From assembly GCA_017441825.1 (NCBI GenBank), contig JAFRVD010000037.1, positions 1 through 47,787 on the forward strand: a stretch of 47,787 bases of DNA, in the 5' to 3' direction. The number at the start of each line of letters is the position of its first letter. Position 1 is the first letter of the stretch. This document shows, one piece after another, positions 4,749 to 46,424 of this stretch. Under the pieces are notes generated by a model. It did not search any database. It saw nothing but the letters and a program-made list of their open reading frames with translations, and was not told the DNA's origin. Source of the DNA: Lachnospiraceae bacterium (lineage in GTDB: Bacteria; Bacillota; Clostridia; Lachnospirales; Lachnospiraceae). The position numbers were made by a program, and so were the translations under genes.

Positions 4749-5590
4749 GCCGTCACCTCCTCTGAAAGCTCCGCGATTTTAGCCGCAAGCTCTTTCTTCG
4801 CCATTGCGTATTCCTCCGCCGTCGGGACCTTGTGGTGCCAGCCGGCTTTGTTTTCCATGAAGGACACGCCCTTGCCCTTGGTGGTCTCCGCAATGATCAC
4901 GGTGGGCACGCCGTTGCTCTCCGTTTTCGCTTCCGCGAAGGCCTTGAGCAGCGCGTCGATATCGTTCCCCTCCGTCACGATCACGCGCCAGCCGAAAGCC
5001 GTAAAGCGCGCCGCGAGGTCATCGTGGTGCATGACGGTCTCCGTCGGGCCGGAGATCTGCAGGCGGTTCCTGTCCACAATAGCAGTCAGGTTGTCGAGCT
5101 TATAGTGCGCCGCCGCCATCGCGCCTTCCCAGACGGAGCCTTCAGCCAGCTCGCCGTCACCCATGAGGACGTACACACGGTTCGGCTTTCCATCCATCTG
5201 GAGGCCCTTCGCGATGCCAACGCTGACCGGAAGGCCGTGCCCCAGCGAGCCGGAGTTCATCTCGATGCCCGGGAGCTTATTGTTCGGGTGACCGATGTAC
5301 GGCGACCCGAATCTCGAGTAGCGGTTCATGACGTCATCGGCGTCTAAAAACCCGCGCTTGGTAAGCGCCGCGTAGTACATCTCTACAGAGTGGCCCTTGC
5401 TTAAGATAAAGTAGTCGCGGCCGGGGTCTTCGGGGTTCTTCGGATCCACGTTCAGCACGCCGAAATATAAAGCGGTCATGATCTCGGCTTCGGAAAAGTC
5501 CCCGCCCATGTGGCCGGTCTTCGCGCCGTAGATCAGGTCCAGCGTATAGTCACGGAGCTCGTAGGCTGTTTTCTTCAGATTCTCACTCAT
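4745..5590 (-). CDS. Transketolase, N-terminal (TPP-binding) subunit (AptA-like)
   Basis: A 281-residue thiamine-diphosphate-binding subunit. GHMGGDFSEAEIM near residue 28, SKGHSVEMYYAAL near 65, GSLGHGLPVSVGIAKGL near 110 and MGDGELAEGSVWEGAM near 139 (the GDG metal/TPP motif) are all in the expected order. I start at the ATG at 5588-5590 because GGGAG lies about six bases upstream. An in-frame GTG at 5608 would put the ribosome site inside the coding region. It is preceded closely by the isomerase gene (23 bases) and overlaps the C-subunit gene by four bases. Together the two subunits equal one full transketolase of roughly 590 residues. Confidence 0.88.
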   Translation of the reverse strand: MSENLKKTAYELRDYTLDLIYGAKTGHMGGDFSEAEIMTALYFGVLNVDPKNPEDPGRDYFILSKGHSVEMYYAALTKRGFLDADDVMNRYSRFGSPYIGHPNNKLPGIEMNSGSLGHGLPVSVGIAKGLQMDGKPNRVYVLMGDGELAEGSVWEGAMAAAHYKLDNLTAIVDRNRLQISGPTETVMHHDDLAARFTAFGWRVIVTEGNDIDALLKAFAEAKTESNGVPTVIIAETTKGKGVSFMENKAGWHHKVPTAEEYAMAKKELAAKIAELSEEVTA

Positions 5591-8530: not shown

Positions 8531-9547
8531 ATGTCAATAACCGCTAAAGAACTGGCTAAGATCCTGAACATCTCAGAGGCCGCCGTTTCTATGGCGCTCA
8601 ATAACAAGCCCGGAGTCAGTACGGCCAGAAAGAAAGAGATCCTTGCCGCTGCCGAAAAATACGGCTATGATTTTACCCGCGTAAACCAGAAGCACAACCT
8701 TGCAGGGTCGGTCTACTTCGTTATATACAAAAAGCACGGGACCGTCGTCACGGACACCCCGTTCTTCTCGGAGCTTTCGGGCGGCGTGGAAAACGCCTGC
8801 CGCGAACGTAATCTGAAGCTTCGTACCCGCTACATATACGAGGACGAAGACACTCCGAAAGAAATCGATGCCCTGCGGTATTCGGACTGCATCGGGATGA
8901 TCCTACTCGGAACGGAAATGACCCGGGAAGATTTCAACGCCTTCGCGGATCTGCCCTTCCCGCTGATTCTCTTGGACGCCTCCTTCCAGAACATCAACCG
9001 TGATACGGTCATGATCGACAATATACAAGCGGCATATCTCGCGACCAGCTACCTGATCTCTCATATCCGGACCCAGCCCGGATATCTGCGTTCTTCCTAC
9101 AGCATTGCCAATTTCGAAGAGCGCGCGGACGGATTTTATAAAGCCATCCGGGAATCGGGCATGTCCAGCGGAAAATCGCTTGTGCACCGCCTTACGCCTT
9201 CCATCGAAGGCGCTTATGAAGACATGAGGGCTATCCTGCAGGAGGGTCAGGTACCCGCCCGCGGATATTTTGCCGACAATGACCTGATCGCGGTAGGCGC
9301 GATGCGCGCGATCCTTGCCGCGGGATACCGTATCCCGCAGGACGTCGCAGTTATTGGCTTTGACAACATGCCCATCGGGAACTATACTTCTCCGACACTT
9401 ACGACCGTCAACGTCCCGAAGGCTTATATGGGCGCAACCGCCGTAAAACGCCTTGAGTCCCTCTTTACCGCCAAAAACTTTGTCCCGGTGCGCATCCAGG
9501 TCAGCGTGGCGCTCGTGAAGCGGAATTCCGTCCATATCCGGCAATAA
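8531..9547 (+). CDS. LacI-family transcriptional regulator
   Basis: A 338-residue repressor. Residues 1-50 form the LacI helix-turn-helix (ITAKELAKILNISEAAVSMAL with KPGVSTARKKEIL following), and the rest is a periplasmic-binding-protein-like sensor ending with the usual VIGFDNMPIG and LTTVNVP strands. I start at ATG 8531 because GGAGGT (8518-8523) is well placed and the HTH begins at once; an upstream in-frame ATG at 8429 would add 34 unrelated residues. The effector is probably a sugar or sugar phosphate from the surrounding pathway. Repeats of TTAATTT at its own promoter and at 16655-16717 are its likely sites. It is convergent with the DUF1593 gene and shares a terminator with it. Confidence 0.92.
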   Translation: MSITAKELAKILNISEAAVSMALNNKPGVSTARKKEILAAAEKYGYDFTRVNQKHNLAGSVYFVIYKKHGTVVTDTPFFSELSGGVENACRERNLKLRTRYIYEDEDTPKEIDALRYSDCIGMILLGTEMTREDFNAFADLPFPLILLDASFQNINRDTVMIDNIQAAYLATSYLISHIRTQPGYLRSSYSIANFEERADGFYKAIRESGMSSGKSLVHRLTPSIEGAYEDMRAILQEGQVPARGYFADNDLIAVGAMRAILAAGYRIPQDVAVIGFDNMPIGNYTSPTLTTVNVPKAYMGATAVKRLESLFTAKNFVPVRIQVSVALVKRNSVHIRQ

Positions 9548-9569
9548 GAAAGTCCTTACTCTCTGTGTC

Positions 9570-9605
9570 AGACGGGGACAGGTTCATGAAGAACTGTCCC
9601 CGTCT
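9570..9605. terminator. Bidirectional terminator between convergent genes
   Basis: Arms at 9570-9585 and 9591-9605 (AGACGGGGACAG / CTGTCCCCGTCT plus TTC/GAA with one bulge) lie between the regulator stop and the DUF1593 stop. CTTCTT follows on the plus strand. Confidence 0.75.
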
Positions 9606-9620
9606 CTTCTTATGGCTTTT

Positions 9621-11120
9621 TTACTGCACTTTCACAATAACATGTTGGTACCGTACCAGCCTGAAGTGTCCGTCTGCCTGCGCCTTGACGATCAGATGGA
9701 ACTCGTCCCCCGGCTCCGCGTTCTTCGGAACTGTAAATTCCGCGCAGTCGCCGCAGGAAGAAACGCTGACGAAGACACTGCCCGGCGCGCTGACTTCCGG
9801 ATAGATCCGACAGATCACCATCACCTTCGCGTCCTGGTCCGCGGCTTCCGCCAACGGGTGAATGACTACTCTTTCCCCGGGTGCAGCCGAAAGGTTCACG
9901 CCCTCCTCGATAGAAAGCTTCGGCGCGTGCTCCGCGTCCTCATATTTCTTTGCCGCACACCAGCTGACTCTTGCCGCGAAATCCCGCTGGATATCGCAGA
10001 CGTAGGGCCACATGGATTCAAGCTCCGTCGTGTTTCCGTCCCGGTCGGTATAAGCGTCCATCGAAACGTCCCAGACGTTCAGCGGCTCGCCTTTACTGTT
10101 GAACTGGTTCTCTACGCGGTGATAGCGTCCCGCGATCCCGCCCCAGGCGAAGTTCTCGAGCGTACGGAAGCCCCAGCAGGGGAACAGCAGGAAGAAGGTC
10201 GGGGAGTCGCCCTCAGAGAGGAAGTCATAGGGCACCGGTTTCGGAAGGCCCATCTTCGCGCCGAACCATTCATCGGCGATCTGGGGATTCGATCCGAACT
10301 GGCCTCTCGGGCCCTCGCCTTCATAGACTTTTCCGTCGAGCCAGGTGCAGTAGCCCAAAGCCAGCGCGCTCTTCCCGTTCAGGATCTCACGCTTCATGAA
10401 GTCCGCCCGGAGCGTGTCCTTCGACTCGCCTTCCGGCATGACAAACCAGGGATAGGCATAGCTCCGCATCTGGAGCGTCTTCACGAACTGCATGTCGGGC
10501 CAGTTTTCGGCAATATAGCTGCGGTAGGTTGGATCCTGCTCTCCGCAGGCCGTGACCACAACTTTCTTCATGATCTTCTCACGAAGCGCATCCCATCCTT
10601 CTGTTCCTTCATACTCATTCTGGATATCAAGAAGCGCTCTCGCCAGCGTGTTCGTGCCGCCCCAGACCTGGACGTACAGGGTCCTGGGGTCATCGTCCAG
10701 GATTTTCTCCCGGATGAGCTCCGAGCCTTCTGTAGGCTCTTCCATCTCACCTTCATAGCCAATATTGCCGATCTTTGTAATAGACCGAAGGTAATCCGGC
10801 GTGGGATACCCTTCCGCATGCTTCACAAGATCCGGATAGTCTTTCTCATAGTCATCGATCTCATCCCACATCCACTGTGTTCCGGTCCAACGGTAAGACT
10901 GGTCGTAAGGGCCTGAGACCTCTCCTTCGAACTCAAATTCACTGCGGATCACGTTATCCTTAGTCGCGCCGGGCACGCCGATCCAGTGGAATTTGCTGGA
11001 GCTCTGCACAATGCCCTGAAGCTCGACCTCGTTCGCGTACAGCAGAAAGTGCCGGAGAGAGTTCTGGTCGTCCACCTCAGCGTCCTGGGTGATGATAGTA
11101 CGCAATTTCAGTTCGTTCAT
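9621..11120 (-). CDS. DUF1593 protein (nucleoside-hydrolase-like domain plus Ig-like domain)
   Basis: A 499-residue protein of the Sde182/DUF1593 type. The N-terminal domain begins LRTIITQDAEVDDQNSLRHF, where DAEVDD corresponds to the Asp-rich calcium site of nucleoside hydrolases, and LYANEVELQGIV follows as in the family. VQVWGGTNTLARAL near residue 151 is another family block. The last 90 or so residues look like a beta-sandwich. No signal peptide is visible, so it acts inside the cell. The biochemical activity of the family is poorly known; hydrolysis of a furanosyl glycoside is a reasonable guess. It follows the DUF4038 glycosidase gene by 53 bases, and an AGGAAAGGA site precedes the ATG. 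A paralogue is at 17855-19348. Confidence 0.8.
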   Translation of the reverse strand: MNELKLRTIITQDAEVDDQNSLRHFLLYANEVELQGIVQSSSKFHWIGVPGATKDNVIRSEFEFEGEVSGPYDQSYRWTGTQWMWDEIDDYEKDYPDLVKHAEGYPTPDYLRSITKIGNIGYEGEMEEPTEGSELIREKILDDDPRTLYVQVWGGTNTLARALLDIQNEYEGTEGWDALREKIMKKVVVTACGEQDPTYRSYIAENWPDMQFVKTLQMRSYAYPWFVMPEGESKDTLRADFMKREILNGKSALALGYCTWLDGKVYEGEGPRGQFGSNPQIADEWFGAKMGLPKPVPYDFLSEGDSPTFFLLFPCWGFRTLENFAWGGIAGRYHRVENQFNSKGEPLNVWDVSMDAYTDRDGNTTELESMWPYVCDIQRDFAARVSWCAAKKYEDAEHAPKLSIEEGVNLSAAPGERVVIHPLAEAADQDAKVMVICRIYPEVSAPGSVFVSVSSCGDCAEFTVPKNAEPGDEFHLIVKAQADGHFRLVRYQHVIVKVQ

Positions 11121-17854: not shown

Positions 17855-19348
17855 TTACCTTACCGTGACGATCAGCTGGCCGTACCCGGTCATTGGGTTT
17901 TCATGCTCGTTCCGGGCCTCCAGGATCAGGTTGAAATAGTCTCCGGACTGAGCGTCCGAGGGGACGGTAAAGGTGAGAGTGAGGGAGTCATCGGCAGAAA
18001 GTGCTGTGTCAGCGTCAGCTCCGCCTTCATAAGAAGAGCCTTCTTTATACAGCCACCACTTTGCCGTATTAGGCCGCACGTCCGCAACAGATCCCCGTAC
18101 CGTCACAGTTTCTCCGGGCACTGCGCAGAGGTCGTATGCGGAAAGTTTCACGACAGGGTTATGGTTCGCTTCTGCATAGTCCTTGACGCACCAGTCCGCG
18201 CGGGCCGCAAAATCCTCGTGATAGGCCTTGAGGAACGGATTCTTTCTCGGTCCGCGCTTCCGCATCTCCGCCATCATCGCGGCCATGTCGCCACGCTGCA
18301 TCGTATCTACGCGGAGCACGCCCAGCATCGTCCCGTAGCGCCAGTCCTCCATACCGCGAAGGCCGAAGTTCGTGAACAGCGGGATGTAGGTACCGGAATC
18401 GCCTTCGCCTAAGATATCGTATTTCTCAAAGCGGAGCGGCTCCTGGCCCAGGAACCAGTCCAGCACCGGCAGGAGCCCGTACTGGTAGCGGTCGCATTCC
18501 CCGCGGAACACGGTCCCGTCCCCGTAAAGCGCGTATTTTGCCATGAGCGGGCCATGGTTTACCTTGAAGTGAGGATACATATAACCTGCCTGCATCATTG
18601 GCAGAACATCTTCCTGGCAGGTCTTCGCGGTCATAAAGGATGCGTAGCCGTAGTCGCCGCGGATGCAGCGGATACCCGGGAATTTGCCGGGGATATCCGC
18701 ATCCAGGAAGCTGTTGTCCTGTCCCTGGCCGCCAAAAACGCCCAGAATCGCAATCTTTTTCACGACCTTTCCGCAGACTGCGGGCCATTCGGGCTTGTCC
18801 GAATACTTTTCCCAGATCGAGAGCAGTGCCCGGACGATCGTATTCACGCCGCCCCAGGACTGGAGGTACAGCGTGTCCTCCCGGGCGTCCATAATGCACC
18901 GCTCAATAAGCCGCGAGCCTTCCGTTTCATAGCGTACGTCGCCTTCAAACCAGTAGTTCCCGTAGTAAACCTTCGAGAGAAGCTCCTCCGGCGCGGGGAA
19001 GCCTTCCGCATGCTGTGAAAGCTTCGGATAGACCGCAGCGTATTCGTTTTTGATGGTGTCCTCGATCCAGCCGGTCTCAAACGGCCGGAACAGCATCATA
19101 TCCTTCGCAGAAGGATCCGGCTCGCGGTCCGGCATGGGGCCGTCCGTCTCCTTCCGCCCGAGGCAGCAGTAATGCGGAGTCACCTCATTGAGCGTGTGGA
19201 TGCCGTCCCCGTTCCAGTGGAACTGGGACGACGTATAGACGATACCCTCAAGCTCCAGCTCGTTTAAGTAAAGGAACAGATGGATCAGCGAATTCATATC
19301 GTCGCATTCCATGTCCGTAGTCAGGATAGTGCGCGGTTTTTTGATCAT
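17855..19348 (-). CDS. DUF1593 protein, second paralogue (nucleoside-hydrolase-like)
   Basis: A 497-residue protein of the same design as the one at 9621: PRTILTTDMECDDMNSLIHL carries the Asp site (DMECDD), followed by YLNELELEGIV, LQSWGGVNTIVRALLS near residue 172, and a C-terminal beta-sandwich ending GYGQLIVTVR. No signal peptide is present. It lies 33 bases downstream of the esterase gene behind GGAGG and ends at the terminator at 17812. The last 86 bases are about 93 percent identical to the DUF1593 part of the scar at 8153-8238, so the lost gene was a close paralogue of this one rather than of the 9621 gene. The substrate is unknown; a furanosyl glycoside is inferred. Confidence 0.8.
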   Translation of the reverse strand: MIKKPRTILTTDMECDDMNSLIHLFLYLNELELEGIVYTSSQFHWNGDGIHTLNEVTPHYCCLGRKETDGPMPDREPDPSAKDMMLFRPFETGWIEDTIKNEYAAVYPKLSQHAEGFPAPEELLSKVYYGNYWFEGDVRYETEGSRLIERCIMDAREDTLYLQSWGGVNTIVRALLSIWEKYSDKPEWPAVCGKVVKKIAILGVFGGQGQDNSFLDADIPGKFPGIRCIRGDYGYASFMTAKTCQEDVLPMMQAGYMYPHFKVNHGPLMAKYALYGDGTVFRGECDRYQYGLLPVLDWFLGQEPLRFEKYDILGEGDSGTYIPLFTNFGLRGMEDWRYGTMLGVLRVDTMQRGDMAAMMAEMRKRGPRKNPFLKAYHEDFAARADWCVKDYAEANHNPVVKLSAYDLCAVPGETVTVRGSVADVRPNTAKWWLYKEGSSYEGGADADTALSADDSLTLTFTVPSDAQSGDYFNLILEARNEHENPMTGYGQLIVTVR

Positions 19349-37710: not shown

Positions 37711-37753
37711 TAACAGAAAAGATGCACCGCGTTTTGTTGATCCGCAGTGCATC
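37711..37753 (-). terminator. Terminator of the rnf-nrfA-ccs operon
   Basis: On the minus strand arms at 37743-37753 and 37721-37731 (GATGCAC.GCG / CGC.GTGCATC, one mismatch) are followed by TTTTCTGTTA. Between 37639 and 37805 I see no gene, only this hairpin. Confidence 0.8.
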
Positions 37754-37805
37754 CGGAATTTTATCCTGAAAGGCCATGGAACCCACCTTTTCATTTTAAA
37801 TTGTC

Positions 37806-38621
37806 TTATTTATAGCTGTGGACTCCTGGCAGGAACGTGTTCACCCCAATATAGGTAAAGATCACGCAGACAAAGCCCGCCACCGCGAAGATCGCAGCTA
37901 GCTTACCCTTCCAGTTCCTCCGAAGCCTTAAGTGCAGATAGACCGCGTAGATCAGCCACGTGACCAGCGACCAGGTCTCCTTCGGGTCCCAGGACCAGTA
38001 GCTTCCCCAGGCGCGTTCCGCCCAGATGGCGCCGGTCAGGATCGTGAGCGTCAGGAACAGGAGACCGAGACAGACGCTCCGGTAACTGATCAGGTCCAGC
38101 TTCTCCCGCGCAGGGATATGCGTGTCCCAGAAGCCTCCCTCCTTCGCCTTCTCCCGGAACAGGTAGATGAGCGACAGGACAAAGGAAACGCCGAACGAGC
38201 CGTAGGAAATGACGGCCGTAGAAACGTGGACTCCCAGCCAGTTGCTCTGGAGCGCCGGCATGAGCTCATGGATCTCCCTGCTCTGCATGGCGGCGTATCC
38301 GATGATGAGGAACGTCACCGGAGCCGAAAAAGCACCCAGCACGGGGAACCGGAACTTCACTATGAAGATCAGGCTGACCAGGCAGAGGCCCCAGGCGAAG
38401 CACGTGGCAAATTCGTACTGGTTGGTCATCGGCAGACGGCCTGCCGCAATTCCGCGGAGGACAAGCGCCGCCGTATGTATGAGAAGCCCCGCTGCCTGAA
38501 AGCCTCCTGCAGCCTTCGCGAGAGGCGTCTTTTTGAAGATCACAAAGAAGAAATAGAGCAGCATGGTGATGAGATAGATCACCATCACGGCAATGAACAG
38601 CACATTTTCAGCATTCGTCAT
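37806..38621 (-). CDS. ccsA: Cytochrome c haem lyase subunit CcsA
   Basis: A 271-residue membrane protein with about eight helices and the haem-binding WWD segment WGSYWSWDPKETWSLVTW near residue 213. Conserved histidines lie in GVHVSTAVISYG near 127 and AVYLHLR near 239. With its ResB/Ccs1 partner it carries haem out of the cell and attaches it to CXXCH motifs in system II cytochrome c maturation. It overlaps resB by four bases and is the last gene of the rnf-nrfA operon. Its client here is surely NrfA, the only multihaem protein in the window. No CcdA or ResA thioreduction gene is seen nearby. Confidence 0.9.
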   Translation of the reverse strand: MTNAENVLFIAVMVIYLITMLLYFFFVIFKKTPLAKAAGGFQAAGLLIHTAALVLRGIAAGRLPMTNQYEFATCFAWGLCLVSLIFIVKFRFPVLGAFSAPVTFLIIGYAAMQSREIHELMPALQSNWLGVHVSTAVISYGSFGVSFVLSLIYLFREKAKEGGFWDTHIPAREKLDLISYRSVCLGLLFLTLTILTGAIWAERAWGSYWSWDPKETWSLVTWLIYAVYLHLRLRRNWKGKLAAIFAVAGFVCVIFTYIGVNTFLPGVHSYK

Positions 38622-39952
38622 CTCTCTGTCTCCTTTTCCTGCTCAAGTACCGAATCCTGTTCCCGGGGCAGCGTTACCCCGGAGATCTTTTCAAACTGTT
38701 CGCGGAAGATCGGCGCCGATTTTCTGCACTCTCCCTTCACTGTCCACGTTCCATCCTCTTCCCGAAGCGCGGAAAGCCGCATAGGCTTAAGATATAGCGC
38801 AAGCACGAGACCGCAGAGGACGATGAGCCCGCCCAGAAGCGCAAGCCACGTGAACCGGTCTTTTTTGATTTGGATCAGCGTATAATTCTGCGGTTCTGAA
38901 AAGGTGATCACATAGTCGTCCACAGTGATCTGCTCCCCGGAAAGCAGCACGTTCATGCCCAGCATGTGTTCTTCTTCCGTAGCCGGGTCCAGATAATAAA
39001 GCGAATAGAGATACCCCGGATTCCTGATGCTCCCCGAAGCCGTTGCCGGCCCCTCGTCTGTCAGAACGTAGTCCGGATAGAATGCGTTGAACAGAACGAC
39101 AAGCTCCGGAAGGTCCAGAACAGGGAGGAATTCACCCGCGCAGAGCACCTCCTCCTGAAGAAACGACCCGCTCTTCGTGACAGTCACAGCGGCCGCCCAC
39201 CCGGTCGAATTCTGGTAGCACCGGTACCCGAGAAGCTCCGCGGGCCGGTTGACCTCGGCCGTTCCGCTCTCAGTAAGTCCCTTCGCCGTATCCGTAAGCG
39301 TCAGCTCCGCCGTATACTGCGAGACCGTGTCATCCTCACGAAGCTTCACGCGAAAATCGTCGATGGTCATCACAAGCCCCGTATCTCCCACGGGAAGCGA
39401 CTCACCCGTGACTCCGTACACCGTATATTCACGGTGCGTCATCTGCCCGAGCCCGAACCCGAGGATCAGAAGAAGCACGCCCAGATGGCAGACCCAGGCG
39501 CCCCAGATCCCCGCGCGGTGCCGGTCTCCGTAAAGGACAGCACGCCCGTCTTCATCCTTTTCCTCTTTGGGCGTGATCCCAAACCTTTCAAAGAACTGGT
39601 TCGGATCCGCAACGCCTTCCGCCGCCGCAGTCGGCTCCCCCAGGATTACCTTCCCGCCGGACCTCTTCGTCCTTTTTATAAGGCCCGGAAGGCGGATCAG
39701 GTTGCAGAGGATCAGGTTCCCGCAGAGGAACACCGAAAGCACAATGAACCACCAGCAGTGAAAGACGTCGTCCAGTCCAAGCGCTACAATGAGAGACGCT
39801 GTCCTCTCCGAATACGCCGAAGCATATTCCTGAAGCGTGAGTCCCTGCGGAATAAAGCTTCCTCCCGCACACGCCGCGGCCAGGATCACGAGCAGAATGA
39901 CTGCAAACTGCATGGAAGAAAGGAATCTCCATATTTTTTTCAAGGCCGCCAT
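38618..39952 (-). CDS. resB: Cytochrome c biogenesis protein ResB (Ccs1-like)
   Basis: A 444-residue membrane protein: helices near residues 12-34, 62-84, 145-165 and 395-415, with a large outward domain between helices 3 and 4 as in ResB/Ccs1. It binds haem with CcsA and presents apocytochrome. I use ATG 39952 with AAGGAG upstream; the open frame extends 64 codons further but into the hairpin and the nrfA end, with no family similarity. It follows nrfA by 85 bases. In Wolinella a special CcsBA (NrfI) is needed for the CXXCK haem of NrfA, and this pair may do the same. Confidence 0.88.
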   Translation of the reverse strand: MAALKKIWRFLSSMQFAVILLVILAAACAGGSFIPQGLTLQEYASAYSERTASLIVALGLDDVFHCWWFIVLSVFLCGNLILCNLIRLPGLIKRTKRSGGKVILGEPTAAAEGVADPNQFFERFGITPKEEKDEDGRAVLYGDRHRAGIWGAWVCHLGVLLLILGFGLGQMTHREYTVYGVTGESLPVGDTGLVMTIDDFRVKLREDDTVSQYTAELTLTDTAKGLTESGTAEVNRPAELLGYRCYQNSTGWAAAVTVTKSGSFLQEEVLCAGEFLPVLDLPELVVLFNAFYPDYVLTDEGPATASGSIRNPGYLYSLYYLDPATEEEHMLGMNVLLSGEQITVDDYVITFSEPQNYTLIQIKKDRFTWLALLGGLIVLCGLVLALYLKPMRLSALREEDGTWTVKGECRKSAPIFREQFEKISGVTLPREQDSVLEQEKETER

Positions 39953-39972
39953 CGAATTCTCCTTCTGCCAAA

Positions 39973-40004
39973 GTACCGGCAGAGACCAGAGTCTCTGCCG
40001 GTAC
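39973..40004. other. Perfect 14-bp intercistronic hairpin between nrfA and resB
   Basis: Arms 39973-39986 and 39991-40004 with a four-base loop. No T-run follows on either strand, so full termination is unlikely. It may protect the 3' end of the upstream transcript so that NrfA exceeds the haem lyase. Confidence 0.7.
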
Positions 40005-40037
40005 GCACGCTCCGTTCTCTCCCGGGAGCAGTATTGT

Positions 40038-41351
40038 TTACTCCTTGCCCAGTAATTCCATTCCTTCCGCGATTCTTTCCTCAGCAAGGTCCAGGCATCG
40101 GCCGGACAGCTCTGAGTTATGCGCACCTTCGGAGTTCTCAACATAGCAGAAGTCGAAGTACCACTGCGCTTCCCGGTAAAGCTTCCTTACCGCGTCCAGC
40201 TCTTCTCCCGACGCTGCGCCTTCGCTTACTGCCGCAGCCAGCGCGTCCTTGAAATCGGACAGCCGGTTTCCGACCTCCGTCTCCCGCGCCGTGATCTTGT
40301 CCTGAAGCCTGTGGACAAAGTCCGTCATGTCCGTATCCTCGTGGCACTCTGCGCACGTGAGGAGCAGGTTCGGATCATCCAGAGGGCTCGCCAGATAATG
40401 GCTGTGATAGACCGTTCCGTCCTCCGCCATCTCGATCGACATGTGGCAGTCCGCGCAGTTCATCCCTTCCGCCGCATGCCTGCCGTAAAGGAACGTCTCC
40501 ATCTCCGGATGCTGCGCCTTCAGCATATGAGCACCCGTGCTTTCCTGGACCCAGTCGTAGAAGCCAACCGTTCCGTCCGGCATGACCATGCTGTCGTAGT
40601 AAGCCAGGATCGCTTCCGGCGTCATGGCCTCCACGCTGTCGTAAGGCATCATGGTCTCCTTGTCCGAAGGCGTGAAATAGTATTCGATATGGCACTGGCC
40701 GCAGGAAAGCGTTGCCGCGTCGATGGTATCCGCGTTATCTCCAAGTGCCTTCAGCACATACGAATGAGTGATGGTGATCTTTCCCTGGTTCCCCGCGTCG
40801 TTTCCGTGACAGGTATAGCAGGAGACGCTCTCCTCCATTGCACTCATCACGTCGGCAAAATCCATTGTATAGGCGCTTACGCCCAGGTCGTTCACAAGCT
40901 TCGCGAAGTTGGGCGTCTTGCACGTGAGGCAGTTTGCCATCGGATGCGGACGCTCCGTCTTGGCAACGTCCTCCAGGCAGTACTCGTGCCCTCTAGCCGA
41001 GCCGTAGTCCTTGGCGAAGCCGTATCCCTCATAGACGTTGACCAGATAAGGATCCTGCTCAAGATAGCTCACTACCGTGTAATTGTTCGCGTTGTCCTTC
41101 ATGGTGGTGACGATCTCCGGATACGTCTCCTTCCAGTCGGCCGAATTCACGGTGCCGTCCTTGCTGGTAGCCTCCGGCGTCTCTGCTTCGATATACCTGA
41201 TATCCTCCCGTGTGAGCGGTCCGAGATCTCCCCGGTTCAGGAGGTGATACATAAGGTCCTTTCCGCCCAGGAATCCTGCCAGAAGCAGGACTGAGACCGC
41301 AATGATGAGGACCGATATGATCAGTTTGATGGTTTTGTTCTTCTTTTCCAT
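40038..41351 (-). CDS. nrfA: Ammonia-forming cytochrome c nitrite reductase NrfA
   Basis: A 437-residue pentahaem protein. The active-site haem motif is CLTCK (residues 141-145), with Lys as ligand, and four CXXCH motifs follow at 178, 217, 299 and 333. Active-site residues match known NrfA: Arg near 120, Tyr in CGQCHIEYYF near 225, and His in KAQHPEME near 281. It reduces nitrite to ammonia with six electrons outside the cytoplasmic membrane. A single N-terminal helix (9-29) without a clear cleavage site probably anchors it. The start lies eight bases after the rnfB stop with AGGTAGGG upstream, so it is in the rnf operon. No nrfH is present, leaving the electron donor open. Confidence 0.95.
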   Translation of the reverse strand: MEKKNKTIKLIISVLIIAVSVLLLAGFLGGKDLMYHLLNRGDLGPLTREDIRYIEAETPEATSKDGTVNSADWKETYPEIVTTMKDNANNYTVVSYLEQDPYLVNVYEGYGFAKDYGSARGHEYCLEDVAKTERPHPMANCLTCKTPNFAKLVNDLGVSAYTMDFADVMSAMEESVSCYTCHGNDAGNQGKITITHSYVLKALGDNADTIDAATLSCGQCHIEYYFTPSDKETMMPYDSVEAMTPEAILAYYDSMVMPDGTVGFYDWVQESTGAHMLKAQHPEMETFLYGRHAAEGMNCADCHMSIEMAEDGTVYHSHYLASPLDDPNLLLTCAECHEDTDMTDFVHRLQDKITARETEVGNRLSDFKDALAAAVSEGAASGEELDAVRKLYREAQWYFDFCYVENSEGAHNSELSGRCLDLAEERIAEGMELLGKE

Positions 41352-41359
41352 ACCCTACC

Positions 41360-42160
41360 TCACTTAAGCGGGGGCGTAATGACCTTGGCCGGACATTTTT
41401 CCACGCATTTTCCGCACTGAGTGCACAGCTCGTAGTTGACGTGAGCCAGGTTGTTTTCCACCGTGATGGCGCCGGCCTCGCACTGACGCGTGCAAAGCGT
41501 GCAGCCAATACAGCCTGCCGAACACACCTGCTTCACCTGCGGCCCGCGGTCCTTATTGGAACACTGCACCGCCACATGGTTTTTCTCCGGGATCAGCTCG
41601 ATGAGTCCGCGCGGGCAGGTCTTTACGCAAAGCCCGCAGGCCACGCAGCGCCGCGGATCGACCGAAGCTACGCCGTCCTTCACGCTGATGGCATGCTCCG
41701 GACACACCGCTTCGCAGCTTCCGAAGCCTAAGCATCCGTAATCACAGTCTGACGTACGGATTCCGTTGAGCGCCACACTTCTGCAGTCCCGGACGCCCAC
41801 GTAGTTCCCCTGGTTTTTCGTTACATTGCAGTCGCCTTTGCAACGGACGAACGCGACCTTCCGCTCCACCGTTCCGGCGTCGATGCCCATGATGGCCCCG
41901 ATCTTCTCCGCAACGGGGGTGCCGCCCACAGGACACCCGTTGGCAGGCGCCTCGCCCTTGGCGATGGCCGCCGCCATGGCATCGCAGCCGGCAAATCCGC
42001 AGGCACCGCAGTTGTTCCCCGGAAGTGCCTCCCGGACTGCGGTTTCCCGCTCATCTGTTTCCACATAAAACTTTTTATTGGTGAACACAAGTCCTGCGCC
42101 CACCGCGATCCCGATGGCGGTGATCACCGCCGTCGTGACCAGAATGATCGTGAGACCCAT
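41360..42160 (-). CDS. rnfB: Rnf complex subunit B (multi-cluster ferredoxin-type)
   Basis: A 266-residue protein with one N-terminal helix (3-26), the Fe-S domain NNCGACGFAGCDAM (Cys51, 54, 59 and then 76), and a chain of ferredoxin motifs up to the C-terminus (CVACGLCVKTCPRG, CIGCTLCTRQCEAG, CTQCGKCVEKCPAK). RnfB takes electrons from reduced ferredoxin and passes them into the complex. It is the last rnf gene, as in Clostridia, and runs straight into nrfA. Confidence 0.95.
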   Translation of the reverse strand: MGLTIILVTTAVITAIGIAVGAGLVFTNKKFYVETDERETAVREALPGNNCGACGFAGCDAMAAAIAKGEAPANGCPVGGTPVAEKIGAIMGIDAGTVERKVAFVRCKGDCNVTKNQGNYVGVRDCRSVALNGIRTSDCDYGCLGFGSCEAVCPEHAISVKDGVASVDPRRCVACGLCVKTCPRGLIELIPEKNHVAVQCSNKDRGPQVKQVCSAGCIGCTLCTRQCEAGAITVENNLAHVNYELCTQCGKCVEKCPAKVITPPLK

Positions 42161-42173
42161 ATGACCGCCCTCC

Positions 42174-42752
42174 TTAGAACATCAGGCTGGAGAAGCCCAT
42201 GAATGCGATGGACATGAGCGCCGCAGCTATCAGCACCACCGGCGCGCCGCGAAGAGGCGCCGGCAGGTCCGCTTCATTGATGCGGCTCCGGATCCCGGCT
42301 AACAGCACGATGGCGATGGTAAAGCCTACCGCCGTGCCTAAGCCTGCAGCCACGCTCTCGATAAAGTTGTACTCGTTCTGGACGTTCGTAAGCGCAACGC
42401 CAAGCACCGCGCAGTTGGTCGTAATGAGCGGCAGGAAGATGCCGAGTGCCTGATAAACGGCCGGGGCTTTCTTCTTTAAGAACATTTCCACGATCTGCAC
42501 GAGCGCCGCGATCACCAGGATGAAGACGATGGTCTTCATGAAATCGAGGCCGAGAGGCGCGAGCACATAGGTGTACAGAAGGCTCGCCACCGCGGACGCG
42601 ATGGTAATGACGAAGATCACCGCGCCGCCTAAGGATGCGGAAGCCTTCATCTGCTTCGATACGCCTAAGAATGAGCAGATCCCAAGGAACTGGTTCAAAA
42701 CCACGTTATTGACAAGGGCGGTGCCCACCATGATCAGAATGAGGCTCTTCAT
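42174..42752 (-). CDS. rnfA: Rnf complex subunit A
   Basis: A 192-residue protein with six helices. Cys26 (FLGICSFLG) and Cys114 (TTNCAVLG) are the conserved pair that, with the matching pair in RnfE, hold the intramembrane iron-sulfur cluster. The length equals the family norm. It overlaps rnfE by four bases and precedes rnfB by 13 bases. Confidence 0.95.
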   Translation of the reverse strand: MKSLILIMVGTALVNNVVLNQFLGICSFLGVSKQMKASASLGGAVIFVITIASAVASLLYTYVLAPLGLDFMKTIVFILVIAALVQIVEMFLKKKAPAVYQALGIFLPLITTNCAVLGVALTNVQNEYNFIESVAAGLGTAVGFTIAIVLLAGIRSRINEADLPAPLRGAPVVLIAAALMSIAFMGFSSLMF

Positions 42753-43435
42753 TCGGCAGCACCTCCTTCCCGTCTTTCACAGTTCATCGCGCACGCTCCG
42801 CATATACCGTCGCAGCCCACCTGCTCCACCAGCTTGCGCTGGCGCGTCTTGATGCCGATGGCGTTCATGATGACGATAAAGAGCGCGATCACGAGGAACG
42901 CTCCGGGCGGCTGCACGAAGATGCCGATCGGCTCGACCGACTCCGGCAGGACCCGAAGACCGAACGCCGTGCCGCTGCCTAACACCTCACGTACGAGGCC
43001 CGCCAGCGTAAGTGCAACGGTGAAGCCGAGCCCCATGCCGATCGCGTCAAAGACCGACAGGAGCGGCGTATGCTTGTTTGCGTAAGCCTCCGCTCTGCCT
43101 AAGATGATGCAGTTCACCACGATCAGCGGGATATAGATCCCAAGCGCTTCGTAGACCGAGGGAAGATACGCCTCGATGAGAAGCTCCGTCACCGTGACAA
43201 GCGACGCCACGATCACGATATATGCAGGCAGACGTACCTGGTTCGGGATCACTTTCCGAAGAAGCGAGATGACCAGGTTCGAAAGGATCAGCACCGCCAT
43301 CGTAGACAGGCCCATCCCGATACCGTTCATCGCGCGGGTGGAAACAGCGAGAGTCGGGCACATGCCCAGCATCAGGACCAGAGTGGGGTTTTCCTTGATC
43401 AGGCCGTTGTACAGCCGTTCGAGACATGCTTTCAT
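42749..43435 (-). CDS. rnfE: Rnf complex subunit E with Cys-rich C-terminal tail
   Basis: A 228-residue membrane protein homologous to RnfA. Cys26 (LGMCPTLAV) and Cys109 (VVNCIILGR) are the cluster ligands. After the last helix the tail reads GCDGICGACAMNCERR, a C-x3-C-x2-C-x3-C set that could bind an extra metal or cluster on the cytoplasmic side. It starts one base after the rnfD/G stop and overlaps rnfA by four bases. Confidence 0.93.
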   Translation of the reverse strand: MKACLERLYNGLIKENPTLVLMLGMCPTLAVSTRAMNGIGMGLSTMAVLILSNLVISLLRKVIPNQVRLPAYIVIVASLVTVTELLIEAYLPSVYEALGIYIPLIVVNCIILGRAEAYANKHTPLLSVFDAIGMGLGFTVALTLAGLVREVLGSGTAFGLRVLPESVEPIGIFVQPPGAFLVIALFIVIMNAIGIKTRQRKLVEQVGCDGICGACAMNCERREGGAAE

Positions 43436-43436
43436 A

Positions 43437-44993
43437 TTATTCCCCCCTTATCTGGCTCAGGAAATCGAGGCCGGCGTTCACTGCGTTGACAGACGCCTTG
43501 GAGGACCAGGTCGCGCCGGACACACCGTCGATCTCCGTCTCCTGAGACGCACCGCCGTCCTTCAGGAGAATAAACTTATCCACGTTCCGTCCGCTGAACT
43601 GATCCATGAACGCAGGCTCTCCGCAGAGAGAACCCTTGCCCGGCGTTTCGTTCAGCTCCGTATAGGTTATGCCGTTCACCGTGCCGTCCGGTTTGACGCC
43701 CAGTGAAAGCGTAATATCTCCTTCGTAGCCTTCCGAGGAAGTCACGGAGACCGCATAGCCCGCGATACTTCCATCGGCGGTTTTTCCGACCACGGCTTCG
43801 TTGATCTTCACCTTCCCGAAGGACGTTCCGTAGGTGCCTCCGCCAAGTGCCTCAACTTCCTTCGTCAGGAACTCAAATTCCTCCGCCTCCGGAATGACGA
43901 TCCGGTACGCTTCGGCTCTTGCCGCTTCCTTCTGCGCGTCGATGTTCGGCTTCGTGACCGTATACGCACCGGAAAGCGCGAGACCCGCAAGCAGTGTGAT
44001 GACCGTAAGCGCGATCACAGGCTTCGGGATCCTGAACGGCTGCCTGGTTCCCGCGCGCATCTCGATCTCACGCTTCCGGAACGCATACGGCTTCGGAACG
44101 ACGTAGGTGTCAATGAGCGGCGTAAACAGGTTGCCGATGATCACGCAGTAGCTGAACGAGTCCGCAGACGCGCCGAATACGCGGAGCAGACCGCCCAGAA
44201 TACCGATGAGAAGTCCGTACGTCAGCTGGCCCAGCCGGCTGACCGGGGACGTGACGTAATCTGTGGCCATAAAGAAGGCCGCCATGACCACGCCGCCGCC
44301 GCAGATATTCGCGGCAAGGTAGGCAGGATCAAAGCCCTGACCTCCAAAGAGTCCCATAAAGACCGTAAAGCCGATGAGCACGGAGAAGCAGATCTCTCCG
44401 TGGATGATATCGAAGGCCCAGAGCAGCAGGCCGCCCACCAGCATCGCGAGAACAGAGCTGCCGATGACGCCGTTGGTCGTCCCGAGGAACATCCGGGTCA
44501 CGTCCACAGCCTTGCCGCTAAGAAGCTCCGCGACCGGGGTCGCGCTGGTCACACCGTCCACCGTCGGGAACTTTGTCATCGTATTCCCGAAGGAGATCAG
44601 CAGGAAGCAGCGCGCAGCCAGCGCCGGGTTGATGAAATTCTTGCCAAGCCCGCCAAAGCAGCACTTAACGACGAGGATCGCAAAGATGCCGCCAATGATC
44701 GGAATGTAAAGCGGTACAGTGGGCGAAAGGCAAAGCGCGAGGAGAAGCCCCGTGACCAGTGCGCTTCCGTCCAGGAATGTATTCGGCCGGTGGCAGAGCT
44801 TGTCAAACAGAAGCTCCGTCAGGAAGCAGGCGAGCATGCAGACAAGGATGACCCAGAGCGCATGCAGGCCGTTCACGACCACGCCCACCACCGCCGTAGG
44901 CAGCAGCGCCAGAAGGACACAGCCCATAATAAAAGGTGTGGTCCAGCGGTCCCGGATATGCGGACCGGAGGAGAGATTCAGTGTATTGTTCAT
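43437..44993 (-). CDS. Rnf complex subunits D and G fused in one chain
   Basis: A 518-residue protein. Residues 1 to about 310 are RnfD: about nine helices and the flavin-attachment motif DGVTSATP (146-153, Thr152). A basic linker (FRKREIEMR) leads to a helix (about 328-350) and then the outward RnfG FMN-binding domain, whose flavin-attachment motif is SGATWSS (about 492-498). Both covalent FMN sites are therefore intact and both face outside. In most species rnfD and rnfG are separate neighbouring genes. The reading frame is continuous with no stop or restart where rnfG would begin. It overlaps rnfC by four bases. Confidence 0.92.
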   Translation of the reverse strand: MNNTLNLSSGPHIRDRWTTPFIMGCVLLALLPTAVVGVVVNGLHALWVILVCMLACFLTELLFDKLCHRPNTFLDGSALVTGLLLALCLSPTVPLYIPIIGGIFAILVVKCCFGGLGKNFINPALAARCFLLISFGNTMTKFPTVDGVTSATPVAELLSGKAVDVTRMFLGTTNGVIGSSVLAMLVGGLLLWAFDIIHGEICFSVLIGFTVFMGLFGGQGFDPAYLAANICGGGVVMAAFFMATDYVTSPVSRLGQLTYGLLIGILGGLLRVFGASADSFSYCVIIGNLFTPLIDTYVVPKPYAFRKREIEMRAGTRQPFRIPKPVIALTVITLLAGLALSGAYTVTKPNIDAQKEAARAEAYRIVIPEAEEFEFLTKEVEALGGGTYGTSFGKVKINEAVVGKTADGSIAGYAVSVTSSEGYEGDITLSLGVKPDGTVNGITYTELNETPGKGSLCGEPAFMDQFSGRNVDKFILLKDGGASQETEIDGVSGATWSSKASVNAVNAGLDFLSQIRGE

Positions 44994-46342
44994 TTCTTCC
45001 CTCCTGCCTGTGCCGCCCGTTTCCGGGCCATAATTTCTGCCTTGGCTGCCTTAAACGTCTCTGTGAGCGGCCGCTTGGCCGGACAGATGTAGGAACAGGA
45101 GCCGCAGGCTACGCACTCCAGTCCGTGCAGCTTGTTTTCATAGCGGTCGTACTCGCCGAATTCCACGGCGGAAGCCATCATCTGCGGCATCAGGCCGGTC
45201 GGGCAGACCGTAGTGCACCTTCCGCACCGCAGGCAGGCCGTCATCTCCTTCTCCGCCTTTTCGCTTCCGTCCTCGGTAAATAAAGTGAGGCCGTTGCTGG
45301 TCTTCTGGACCGGCACGTCCAGCGTGCTTAAGGCAAAGCCCATCATCGGGCCGCCCGTGAGCGCCTTTTTCAGAACCACGTTGTCCTTCAACCCGCCGCA
45401 CGCATTTAAAAGCTCGGAAAAGCTGGTGCCGTCCCGGACGATGAAGTTCCCGGGGTTCTTTACCGCTTCTCCGCTTACGGTAAGTACGTGCGTAAACAGC
45501 GGCTCGTTCCACTGGACCGCGCGTCCCACGGCGTAGAGCGTTCCGACGTTGCAGACCACGCAGCCCACGTCCGCGGGAAGATTGGCGATGGGATAATCCA
45601 CGCCGGCCACCACCTTGATCAGGCTGTGCTCACCGCCCTGCGGGTACTTTGTCTTCAGCGGAAGGACCTCCAGCCGGTCCTTGCCGGCAATGGCCTTCTG
45701 CATGGCCTCGATCGCCTCTGGCTTGTTCTTTTCAATACAGATCACGCCCTTCGCGTTCGGGAACAGCCGGAGCGTGATCTCCAGTCCCTCAACGATCCCA
45801 TCGGCGTTCTGCCGCATCAGCTGGTCGTTGCAGGTCAGATACGGCTCGCATTCCGCGCCGTTCGCGATCACAAAACGGATGGCCGAAGGATCCTTGGGCG
45901 CGAGCTTCACGTGCGTCGGGAATCCGGCGCCGCCCAGGCCCACGATCCCTGCGTTTTTGATCCTCGAAAGGATCTCCTCCGAGGTCAGGCCGTTTGTCTC
46001 AAGGCGTTTTCCAAGGCCCTCCACCGGCCGGTACTCGTGATCGTTCTCCACTACAATGCAGTCCGCCATCGCCCCGGACAGCGTGCGGCGTTTTTCAACC
46101 GCCTTCACCGTTCCGGAACAGGAGCAGTAAATGCCCGCAGAAACGAAGCCGTCCGGCTCCGCAATGCACTGCCCGACCAGGACAGGATCGTTCTTTTTGA
46201 CGATGGCCCGGGCAGGCTTGCCGATGTGCTGGGACAGCGGGAAGATAAGATCCCCTTCCGGATCAAAAATACGCAGCTGCGCGTCCCTGCTCAGACCCTT
46301 TTTGTCATCGGGGTGTACGCCGCCGCGAAATGTGACCTTCAT
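44990..46342 (-). CDS. rnfC: Rnf complex subunit C (NADH-binding side)
   Basis: A 450-residue soluble subunit. GIVGLGGAGFPTHVKL (residues 132-147) and NGAECEPYLTCNDQLM (161-176) are the flavin/NADH-binding blocks shared with Nqo1. Two 4Fe-4S sets follow: Cys370, 373, 376, 380 and Cys410, 413, 416, 420. The C-terminus ends with a basic tail. It opens the operon behind the promoter at 46396-46424; TGGAGGAAG precedes the ATG. In the standard complex it exchanges electrons with NAD. Confidence 0.95.
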   Translation of the reverse strand: MKVTFRGGVHPDDKKGLSRDAQLRIFDPEGDLIFPLSQHIGKPARAIVKKNDPVLVGQCIAEPDGFVSAGIYCSCSGTVKAVEKRRTLSGAMADCIVVENDHEYRPVEGLGKRLETNGLTSEEILSRIKNAGIVGLGGAGFPTHVKLAPKDPSAIRFVIANGAECEPYLTCNDQLMRQNADGIVEGLEITLRLFPNAKGVICIEKNKPEAIEAMQKAIAGKDRLEVLPLKTKYPQGGEHSLIKVVAGVDYPIANLPADVGCVVCNVGTLYAVGRAVQWNEPLFTHVLTVSGEAVKNPGNFIVRDGTSFSELLNACGGLKDNVVLKKALTGGPMMGFALSTLDVPVQKTSNGLTLFTEDGSEKAEKEMTACLRCGRCTTVCPTGLMPQMMASAVEFGEYDRYENKLHGLECVACGSCSYICPAKRPLTETFKAAKAEIMARKRAAQAGGKK

Positions 46343-46395: not shown

Positions 46396-46424
46396 ATTGT
46401 AGTACATGTTGCCTGATTTGTAAA
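46396..46424 (-). promoter_or_regulatory. Predicted promoter of the rnf-nrfA-ccs operon
   Basis: On the minus strand TTTACA (46419-46424) and TACAAT (46396-46401) are 17 bases apart, with a 50-base leader. I see no FNR-type or other clear regulator site. The rest of 46343-46515 shows no gene. Confidence 0.6.

Follow-up and report, generated by a model that had tools for sequence, protein, structure and literature searches.

Rnf genes joined to nrfA in Clostridia and Spirochaetes, and a possible quinone-free route of electrons to nitrite

The window analysed here, a stretch of 47,787 nucleotides, is contig 9 of a 2.6-Mb Lachnospiraceae genome in 94 contigs (completeness 81.6%). On its minus strand, between 37806 and 46342, it carries an operon in which the genes of the ion-pumping Rnf complex are joined to those of the ammonia-forming nitrite reductase NrfA and of cytochrome c maturation, in the order rnfC, rnfDG, rnfE, rnfA, rnfB, nrfA, resB, ccsA (Table 1). 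The gene count is eight because RnfD and RnfG form one protein of 518 residues. The genes are tightly packed: rnfC and rnfDG overlap by 4 bases, a single base separates rnfDG from rnfE, rnfE and rnfA again overlap by 4 bases, rnfA and rnfB lie 13 bases apart, and the gap between rnfB and nrfA is 8 bases (41352–41359). An earlier reading of this DNA (henceforth the original prediction) had described eight genes running in one direction with overlaps or small gaps, and a nrfA start eight bases after rnfB; both points were confirmed. All eight products exceed the Pfam gathering score of their own family, and the curated NCBIfam cut-off is passed by RnfC, RnfD, RnfE, RnfA, RnfB and the CcsB-type protein.

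All six Rnf subunits were matched by the models TIGR01943 to TIGR01948, five of them above cut-off and the RnfG part below it (93.7 bits, under the NCBIfam cut-off of 102, with its FMN_bind domain above the Pfam gathering score). RnfD and RnfG are not separate polypeptides in the window but a single open reading frame, and the same fusion was seen in 62/62 readable, non-chimeric relatives (17 loci were unreadable). The cofactor set of the complex is kept. RnfC displays the motifs CLRCGRCTTVC, CVACGSCSYIC and GGAGFP, Fe-S motifs are also retained in RnfB and the cysteine pairs in RnfA and RnfE, and the fusion protein has both motifs for the covalent flavins that had been ascribed to RnfD and RnfG, VTSATP near residue 149 and SGAT near residue 492. 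The C-terminal tail of RnfE (window 42779–42814) holds four cysteines (C208, C212, C215 and C219), and the RnfE of the distant genome G103 also has cysteines there; such a tail could be the site of an extra Fe-S cluster.

The NrfA of the window has five haem sites, one CX2CK (CLTCK) and four CX2CH (CYTCH, CGQCH, CADCH and CAECH). Since it misses the NCBIfam NrfA cut-off (221.6 bits against 595 for NF008339; for TIGR03152, 182.3 against 692.5), it is, judged by its sequence, a divergent member of the family. It keeps Arg119, Lys144, Tyr223 and His280 in alignments with the NrfA structures 2vr0, 2j7a and 1oah and with 29 relatives; we take these four residues to be the catalytic set of the E. 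coli enzyme, the lysine being a haem ligand. The N terminus is a hydrophobic stretch in which no lipobox was seen by eye in the alignment of 30, and the protein is presumably membrane-anchored; a lipobox-like cysteine was noticed by eye at this end in L122, L262, L240 and L204. In the NrfA homologue of genome G033 (L118 6048–7322), whose gene does not lie beside rnf, the catalytic arginine is replaced (SARGH to SAISH), and this protein may act on another substrate. The two genes downstream of nrfA encode the system II maturation pair ResB and CcsA, recognised by PF05140 and TIGR03144.

Table 1. Features of the rnf-nrfA operon in window coordinates
Feature	Coordinates	Strand	Evidence
Promoter-like site TTTACA-17-TACAAT 5' of rnfC	46396..46424	-	consensus scan, 10/12 matches; not proof of function
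rnfC, NADH/FMN (flavin mononucleotide) subunit, two [4Fe-4S] motifs	44990..46342	-	TIGR01945 489.7 bits, cut-off 245.95
rnfD-rnfG fusion, 518 residues	43437..44993	-	PF03116 residues 7-303; PF04205 (FMN-binding) residues 422-509
rnfE, cysteines 26 and 109, Cys-rich C-terminal tail	42749..43435	-	TIGR01948 242.9 bits, cut-off 213.4
rnfA, cysteines 26 and 114	42174..42752	-	TIGR01943 252.9 bits, cut-off 229.3
rnfB, with membrane anchor, FeS and ferredoxin domains	41360..42160	-	TIGR01944 99.8 bits, cut-off 68.7; PF04060, Fer4
nrfA, pentahaem ammonia-forming nitrite reductase	40038..41351	-	PF02335 E 1.9e-76, 258.3 bits against 24.1
14-bp perfect hairpin in the nrfA/resB interval (attenuator- or processing-like)	39973..40004	-	region fold z -4.61
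resB, system II cytochrome c maturation	38618..39952	-	PF05140 E 1.1e-46; no NCBIfam match
ccsA/ccsB-type haem lyase partner (system II)	37806..38621	-	TIGR03144 264.3 bits, cut-off 187.6
Terminator hairpin with UUUUCU tail	37714..37754 (stem 37754-37720)	-	fold -21.2 kcal/mol, z -3.15

A scan with one genome per species gave 108 relatives, and the best 80 of the 108 loci were kept (59 to 75% identity in the best segment). These are titled as metagenome-assembled genomes (MAGs) or uncultured bacteria, many from ruminants, and labelled mostly as Clostridia (Lachnospiraceae, Oscillospiraceae, Christensenella and others) with some Spirochaetes; two of them (L035 and L038) come from one genome. 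Among these best 80, rnfB lies at most 300 bases upstream of nrfA in 63 loci and at most 4 kb upstream in 8 more, none is seen in 6, and 3 are cut off. One locus, L086 (Ruminococcaceae UBA1236), seemed at first to show that a classical Rnf without the fusion had acquired nrfA independently, and was then rejected as an assembly chimera of Ruminococcaceae rnf genes with a Spirochaete rnfB-nrfA end: the join is inside rnfB, and the final 1,329 bases (8811–10139) are 99.7% identical to L071. It is absent from the linkage and fusion counts. With L086 and the three cut-off loci left out, 70 of the 76 assessable loci have an rnfB no farther than 4 kb upstream of nrfA, so that the adjacency which the original prediction had put forward as its own check is conserved. 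Where the sequence extends far enough, nrfA is followed by ResB in 71 of 73 loci and by CcsA in 56 of 59. Two loci with Rnf-linked nrfA (L021 and L051) have neither resB nor ccsA found downstream. One MAG (L027) is titled Erysipelothrix rhusiopathiae and has the same operon as the rumen Clostridia; its species label may be wrong.

A sample of the whole order (295 genomes, some of whose NrfA records are identical to loci among the best 80) contained NrfA in 12 genomes, one of them as a fragment (G372), and all 11 full-length genes stand beside rnf genes. In eight of these rnfB immediately precedes nrfA, which is the order of the window; the other three (G103, G179 and G250) are ordered nrfA-resB-ccsA-(MutS-like)-rnf. 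NrfA was present in 7 of 116 related genomes, beside rnf in six (G000, G003, G006, G009, G012 and G103) and apart from it in G033. For contrast we took 80 NrfA loci, some on short contigs, from the stronger PF02335 matches in a phylum sample (96/398 genomes matched) and a class sample (5/391), both of which include the genome of the window, whose own locus was excluded. A neighbour was called NrfH-like if it lay on the same strand, no more than 600 bases from nrfA, and if its frame, of 330 residues or fewer, had at least 3 CXXCH. Such a neighbour was found at 48 of the 80 loci and at least two Rnf genes at none, with 32 loci having neither an NrfH-like nor an Rnf neighbour. A lone RnfC-like match lies near NrfA in L208; an RnfB-like gene after ccsA in L262 was rejected as RnfB, being a NIR_SIR and ferredoxin-domain protein. 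The linkage to Rnf is special to this lineage; NrfA without adjacent NrfH is not.

Whole-genome searches covered 57 handles, i.e. 56 distinct genomes (G116 is G012), among them G161, the genome of the chimeric contig L086. NrfH (PF03264) was matched in none of the 56, that of the window included, in a search whose control was positive in E. coli only (1/14); the lack of NrfH reported for the window in the original prediction held across this set. A UbiA-type prenyltransferase (PF01040) was not matched in 55 of the 56 genomes, with controls positive in 14/14 and other menaquinone genes not searched. The UbiA prenyltransferase step is, to our knowledge, part of all quinone routes known. In both searches the large number of species covered compensates for individual genomes being drafts. 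Uptake from the rumen is a possible source of quinones.

The linkage of rnfB and nrfA in 70 of 76 loci, the missing NrfH and UbiA matches and the conserved cofactor motifs together argue for a quinone-free route from Rnf to NrfA, and we consider it fairly probable that a ferredoxin-driven Rnf has a presumably membrane-anchored NrfA as its outward electron exit. Reduced ferredoxin would pass electrons to RnfB and from there to the [2Fe2S] cluster of RnfA/E, where Na+ would move, and on to the FMN of the RnfG domain at the outer face. At this point electrons would either go back via RnfD and RnfC to NAD+, as in other Rnf complexes, or proceed, in a step from RnfG that we infer, to the NrfA haems (which ResB and CcsA would have attached), where nitrite would be reduced to ammonium without quinone or NrfH. 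In the Rnf of Acetobacterium woodii, Na+ moves outward as the electron goes from the [2Fe2S] cluster of RnfA/E to the RnfG FMN, after which the electron goes back in via RnfD and RnfC (PMC11889175; this and the other papers are cited from parts of their text). By analogy, an exit from RnfG to NrfA would carry one Na+ and one electron out per step, i.e. zero net charge, leaving a Na+ difference only, and NrfA would consume protons outside. Because no net charge would be moved, the branch resembles an electron valve, or a means of detoxifying nitrite, more than it does a high-yield respiration. The original prediction had made nitrite an electron sink tied directly to an ion-pumping complex; the tie is retained, but energy conservation would be poor by the published mechanism, and the yield is probably lower than was assumed there.

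The two partners also appear to share a history. In the NrfA tree (a short search with long-branch warnings, using 93 of 174 sequences), 30 Rnf-linked rows, 5 unlinked rows and 3 rows of the family f19 (G103, G179 and G250) form one clade, with a Shimodaira–Hasegawa-like approximate likelihood ratio (SH-aLRT) support of 98; the linked rows include the L086 copy, identical to L071. The NrfA of G033 is the first branch of the main clade. In the tree of concatenated RnfD, RnfE and RnfA, the fused Rnf are one clade (100/100) with the unfused Rnf of G033 as sister, and f19 is sister to these together (100/98, midpoint root). The NrfA clade (98) and the concatenated Rnf clade (100/98) hold corresponding members, and on the strength of this correspondence Rnf and NrfA seem to have been long co-inherited, in two phyla and despite a rearrangement of the genes, with transfers and losses along the way. 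We do not claim an independent origin of the rnf-nrfA link in f19; it was considered because f19 falls among unfused Rnf in the tree of RnfD alone, but the concatenated tree allows a single old origin.

Some clusters depart from the arrangement of the window. In L042, rnfB is followed by tatA/tatC-like genes (identified by eye), by a protein with a twin-arginine-like start and FMN_bind and FAD_binding_2 domains (an FMN/FAD protein), and then by nrfA; similar proteins stand between rnfB and nrfA in L057 and L058. These stretches are at 5513–8982 in L042, 3278–5428 in L057 and 6137–8308 in L058. In G163 (L116) the fused rnf genes lie between tat-like genes (by eye) and an FMN/FAD protein with a TAT_signal match. 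Exported respiratory enzymes are known that resemble fumarate reductase and contain FMN_bind domains (PMC8238504). As FMN/FAD proteins precede nrfA in L042, L057 and L058, it is as if the rnf operon were a hub for exported reductases. A different departure is seen in G103 (94% complete; L122 12583–16099), which has rnfD, a 356-residue rnfG, rnfE, rnfA and a 91-residue RnfB in line with nrfA-resB-ccsA; this RnfB ends after the first Fe-S domain and lacks ferredoxin domains. A detached RnfC in G103 was rejected, the sole RnfC_N match being PrdC (506 bits, cut-off 490; 194.7 bits with the RnfC model, cut-off 245.95). G179 (L152 2250–5975) similarly has a short RnfB of about 91 residues without ferredoxin domains and two FMN_bind stretches in RnfG, and no rnfC was seen in its nrfA-linked cluster, the rest of that genome not having been searched for RnfC. 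In G250 rnfC is present in the cluster, with only its start visible before the contig end. The second flavin-type motif of the G103 RnfG is non-canonical (SFAT), and a pattern search of the G179 RnfG gave no canonical flavin motif. A broader proposal, which we advance tentatively and rate as somewhat doubtful, is that the outward flavin of the fused RnfDG feeds exported reductases (NrfA and, in some relatives, the FMN/FAD fumarate-reductase-like enzymes), with a quinone-free ferredoxin:nitrite respiration that exports Na+; the G103 and G179 complexes, apparently stripped of RnfC and of the RnfB ferredoxin domains, would then be outward-only Rnf-NrfA machines.

Several observations weigh against an electron exit from Rnf to NrfA. 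At six of the 76 loci nrfA has no rnf neighbour (for two of these the upstream sequence ends after about 3 kb or sooner), and in some Lachnospiraceae nrfA is separate from rnf. G033 carries NrfA plus an unfused Rnf located elsewhere. No NrfA was found in G002, G005 and G013, which keep a fused Rnf; fused Rnf therefore works without NrfA, and the idea of the fusion as an adaptation to NrfA was not accepted. The RnfD-only tree places f19 among unfused Rnf, and the NrfA of the window is nearest to the Lachnospiraceae locus L010 (99) whereas its Rnf is nearest to the Spirochaete loci L019 and L030 (82/94). The genomes searched are drafts, that of the window included, and the distant G103 has one UbiA match. 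A search for other multihaem cytochromes with PF14522 (E up to 0.01) gave hits in 39 of 57 genomes, and almost all of these hits fall in NrfA itself. In the genome of the window there were two NrfA stretches and one weak match of 53 residues; the short frames that are exceptions to NrfA are in G000 (53 residues), G009 and G012. Weak matches to non-NrfA frames of 378 to 386 residues occur in the Spirochaete genomes G124, G154 and G155, and the test is itself a weak one, since 18 of the 57 NrfA-bearing genomes gave no match and single-haem cytochromes were not sought.

An alternative is that the two systems are co-expressed but pass no electrons between them. Rnf would then do its ferredoxin:NAD+ work only, and NrfA would draw electrons from a different source, for example a NapH-like Fe-S membrane protein, quinones scavenged by the cell, or free flavins or hydroquinones present in rumen fluid. 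The strongest evidence for such a donor, and against an exit to NrfA, is the occurrence of NapH-like Fer4_5 proteins in 42 of 57 genomes, to which can be added the persistence of fused Rnf in relatives without NrfA and the 32 contrast loci with neither kind of neighbour. On the other hand, Fer4_5 was not matched in 15 of the 57, the genome of the window among them, it lies on the nrfA contig in three genomes only (G126, G132 and G156), about 9 kb or more away, and the linkage to rnf in 70 of 76 loci also speaks against a separate donor. We regard this explanation as rather unlikely, though as the likeliest of the alternatives. The genome tests did not refute the quinone-free chain from ferredoxin through Rnf to NrfA that the original prediction proposed, but the NapH-like proteins are a possible rival transmembrane conduit.

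It is also conceivable, and in our judgement improbable, that NADH feeds NrfA by entering at RnfC and moving outward via RnfD and RnfG, so that half of the normal path would run backwards. The window has an intact RnfC, Rnf is reversible (PMC11889175), and outward-moving NAD(P)H-driven Nqr/Rnf-like systems have been proposed (PMC8238504, PMC11334425). The RnfB of the window, however, retains its ferredoxin domains, and the rnfC-less G103 cluster and the similar G179 cluster suggest a linked NrfA without an NADH subunit, a counter-argument qualified by their short RnfB, which is without ferredoxin domains as well. Very improbable, finally, is that a nrfA cassette dropped beside a strong rnf promoter and spread without a functional tie: a highly similar cluster in Clostridia and Spirochaetes suggests horizontal transfer and the window's Rnf and NrfA have different nearest relatives, but rnf can stand either before nrfA or, as in G103, G179 and G250, after it, a deep clade is shared by the NrfA and concatenated Rnf trees, and the same genomes lack an NrfH match and, except G103, a UbiA match.

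NrfA forms NrfHA in Desulfovibrio and epsilonproteobacteria and works with NrfB in enterobacteria. The system described here shares with these the catalytic subunit, its CX2CK haem and the same catalytic residues; it differs in that the donor NrfH was not found in the 56 genomes (NrfB was not searched by its own model). The closest parallels to an Rnf electron exit to NrfA come from elsewhere. In Methanosarcina acetivorans, the multihaem c-type cytochrome MmcA is encoded in the rnf operon and takes electrons from Rnf; with seven haems and a kinship to octahaem tetrathionate reductases, it conducts electrons to methanophenazine or soluble acceptors, and it is stated not to occur in those Bacteria whose Rnf works between ferredoxin and NAD (PMC11024163). 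The window likewise has a multihaem cytochrome gene within the rnf operon, but its cytochrome is a PF02335 NrfA with five haem sites, a terminal reductase, in hosts without a quinone-type prenyltransferase match. In Desulfovibrio gigas (rnfCDGEABF), the cytochrome c of the operon, again multihaem, has been suggested as the connection between Rnf and the cytochrome pool of the periplasm. It is regarded as a carrier, and its genome also encodes quinone-linked complexes and NrfHA as a separate system (PMC4287179); the cytochrome of the window is an end enzyme. A branched path has been proposed for RNF with a multi-flavinylated or cytochrome-bearing RnfG, which resembles the second, outward exit from RnfG suggested here; that proposal concerns other clusters with unknown acceptors, and no word starting with 'nrf' was found in its text (PMC8238504). 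No description of an rnf-nrfA operon was found in the open-licence literature, in so far as its texts were available and with subscription journals outside the scope, and an earlier one is possible.

If an Rnf exit to NrfA is real, it would be a quinone-free respiration in which a redox ion pump of an old type directly supplies a reductase outside the membrane. It would account for the way in which many rumen Clostridia and Spirochaetes that do not synthesise quinones could dispose of nitrite and low-potential electrons, and this bears on the toxicity of nitrite in ruminants and on how hydrogen and methane are formed there. The rnf-nrfA operon would also be a clear test of electron release at the outer side by bacterial Rnf, which is now argued mostly from Methanosarcina.

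As to transcription, the single promoter and terminator of the original prediction were both found as sites, but a further strong hairpin, unmentioned there, lies between nrfA and resB. Promoter-like sites at this match level number 7 in the region, against 4.2 expected in shuffles. The terminator stem was not listed by the first terminator scan because its loop exceeds the limit of that scan. Translation of resB most probably begins with the ATG at 39952, which follows the putative ribosome site AGAAGGAG; this would leave a gap of 85 bases after nrfA, and the stem in this interval has 14 pairs and no strong T run. A perfect stem of at least 8 pairs directly 3' of nrfA was found in 43 of 69 loci, the window included, compared with 6/69 directly 5' of nrfA (a control region that is mostly coding, hence not like for like) and 105/1380 base shuffles; a T-rich tail is present in 15 of the 69. 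The recurrence of these stems suggests that strong expression of the rnf unit may extend as far as nrfA and end there, with resB-ccsA expressed at a lower level. Crp/Fnr-like proteins, recognised by eye, are encoded upstream of rnf-nrfA in L122 (6734–7390, minus strand), L152 (11369–12013, plus strand) and L045 (2892–3563, plus strand).

In the window, the operon is flanked by luxS upstream and by a HAD-family phosphatase gene downstream. Farther away on the minus strand, at 9621–11117 and 17855–19345, there are two Sde182-like cellulose-binding proteins among sugar transport genes, and because of these the host looks like a plant-fibre degrader.

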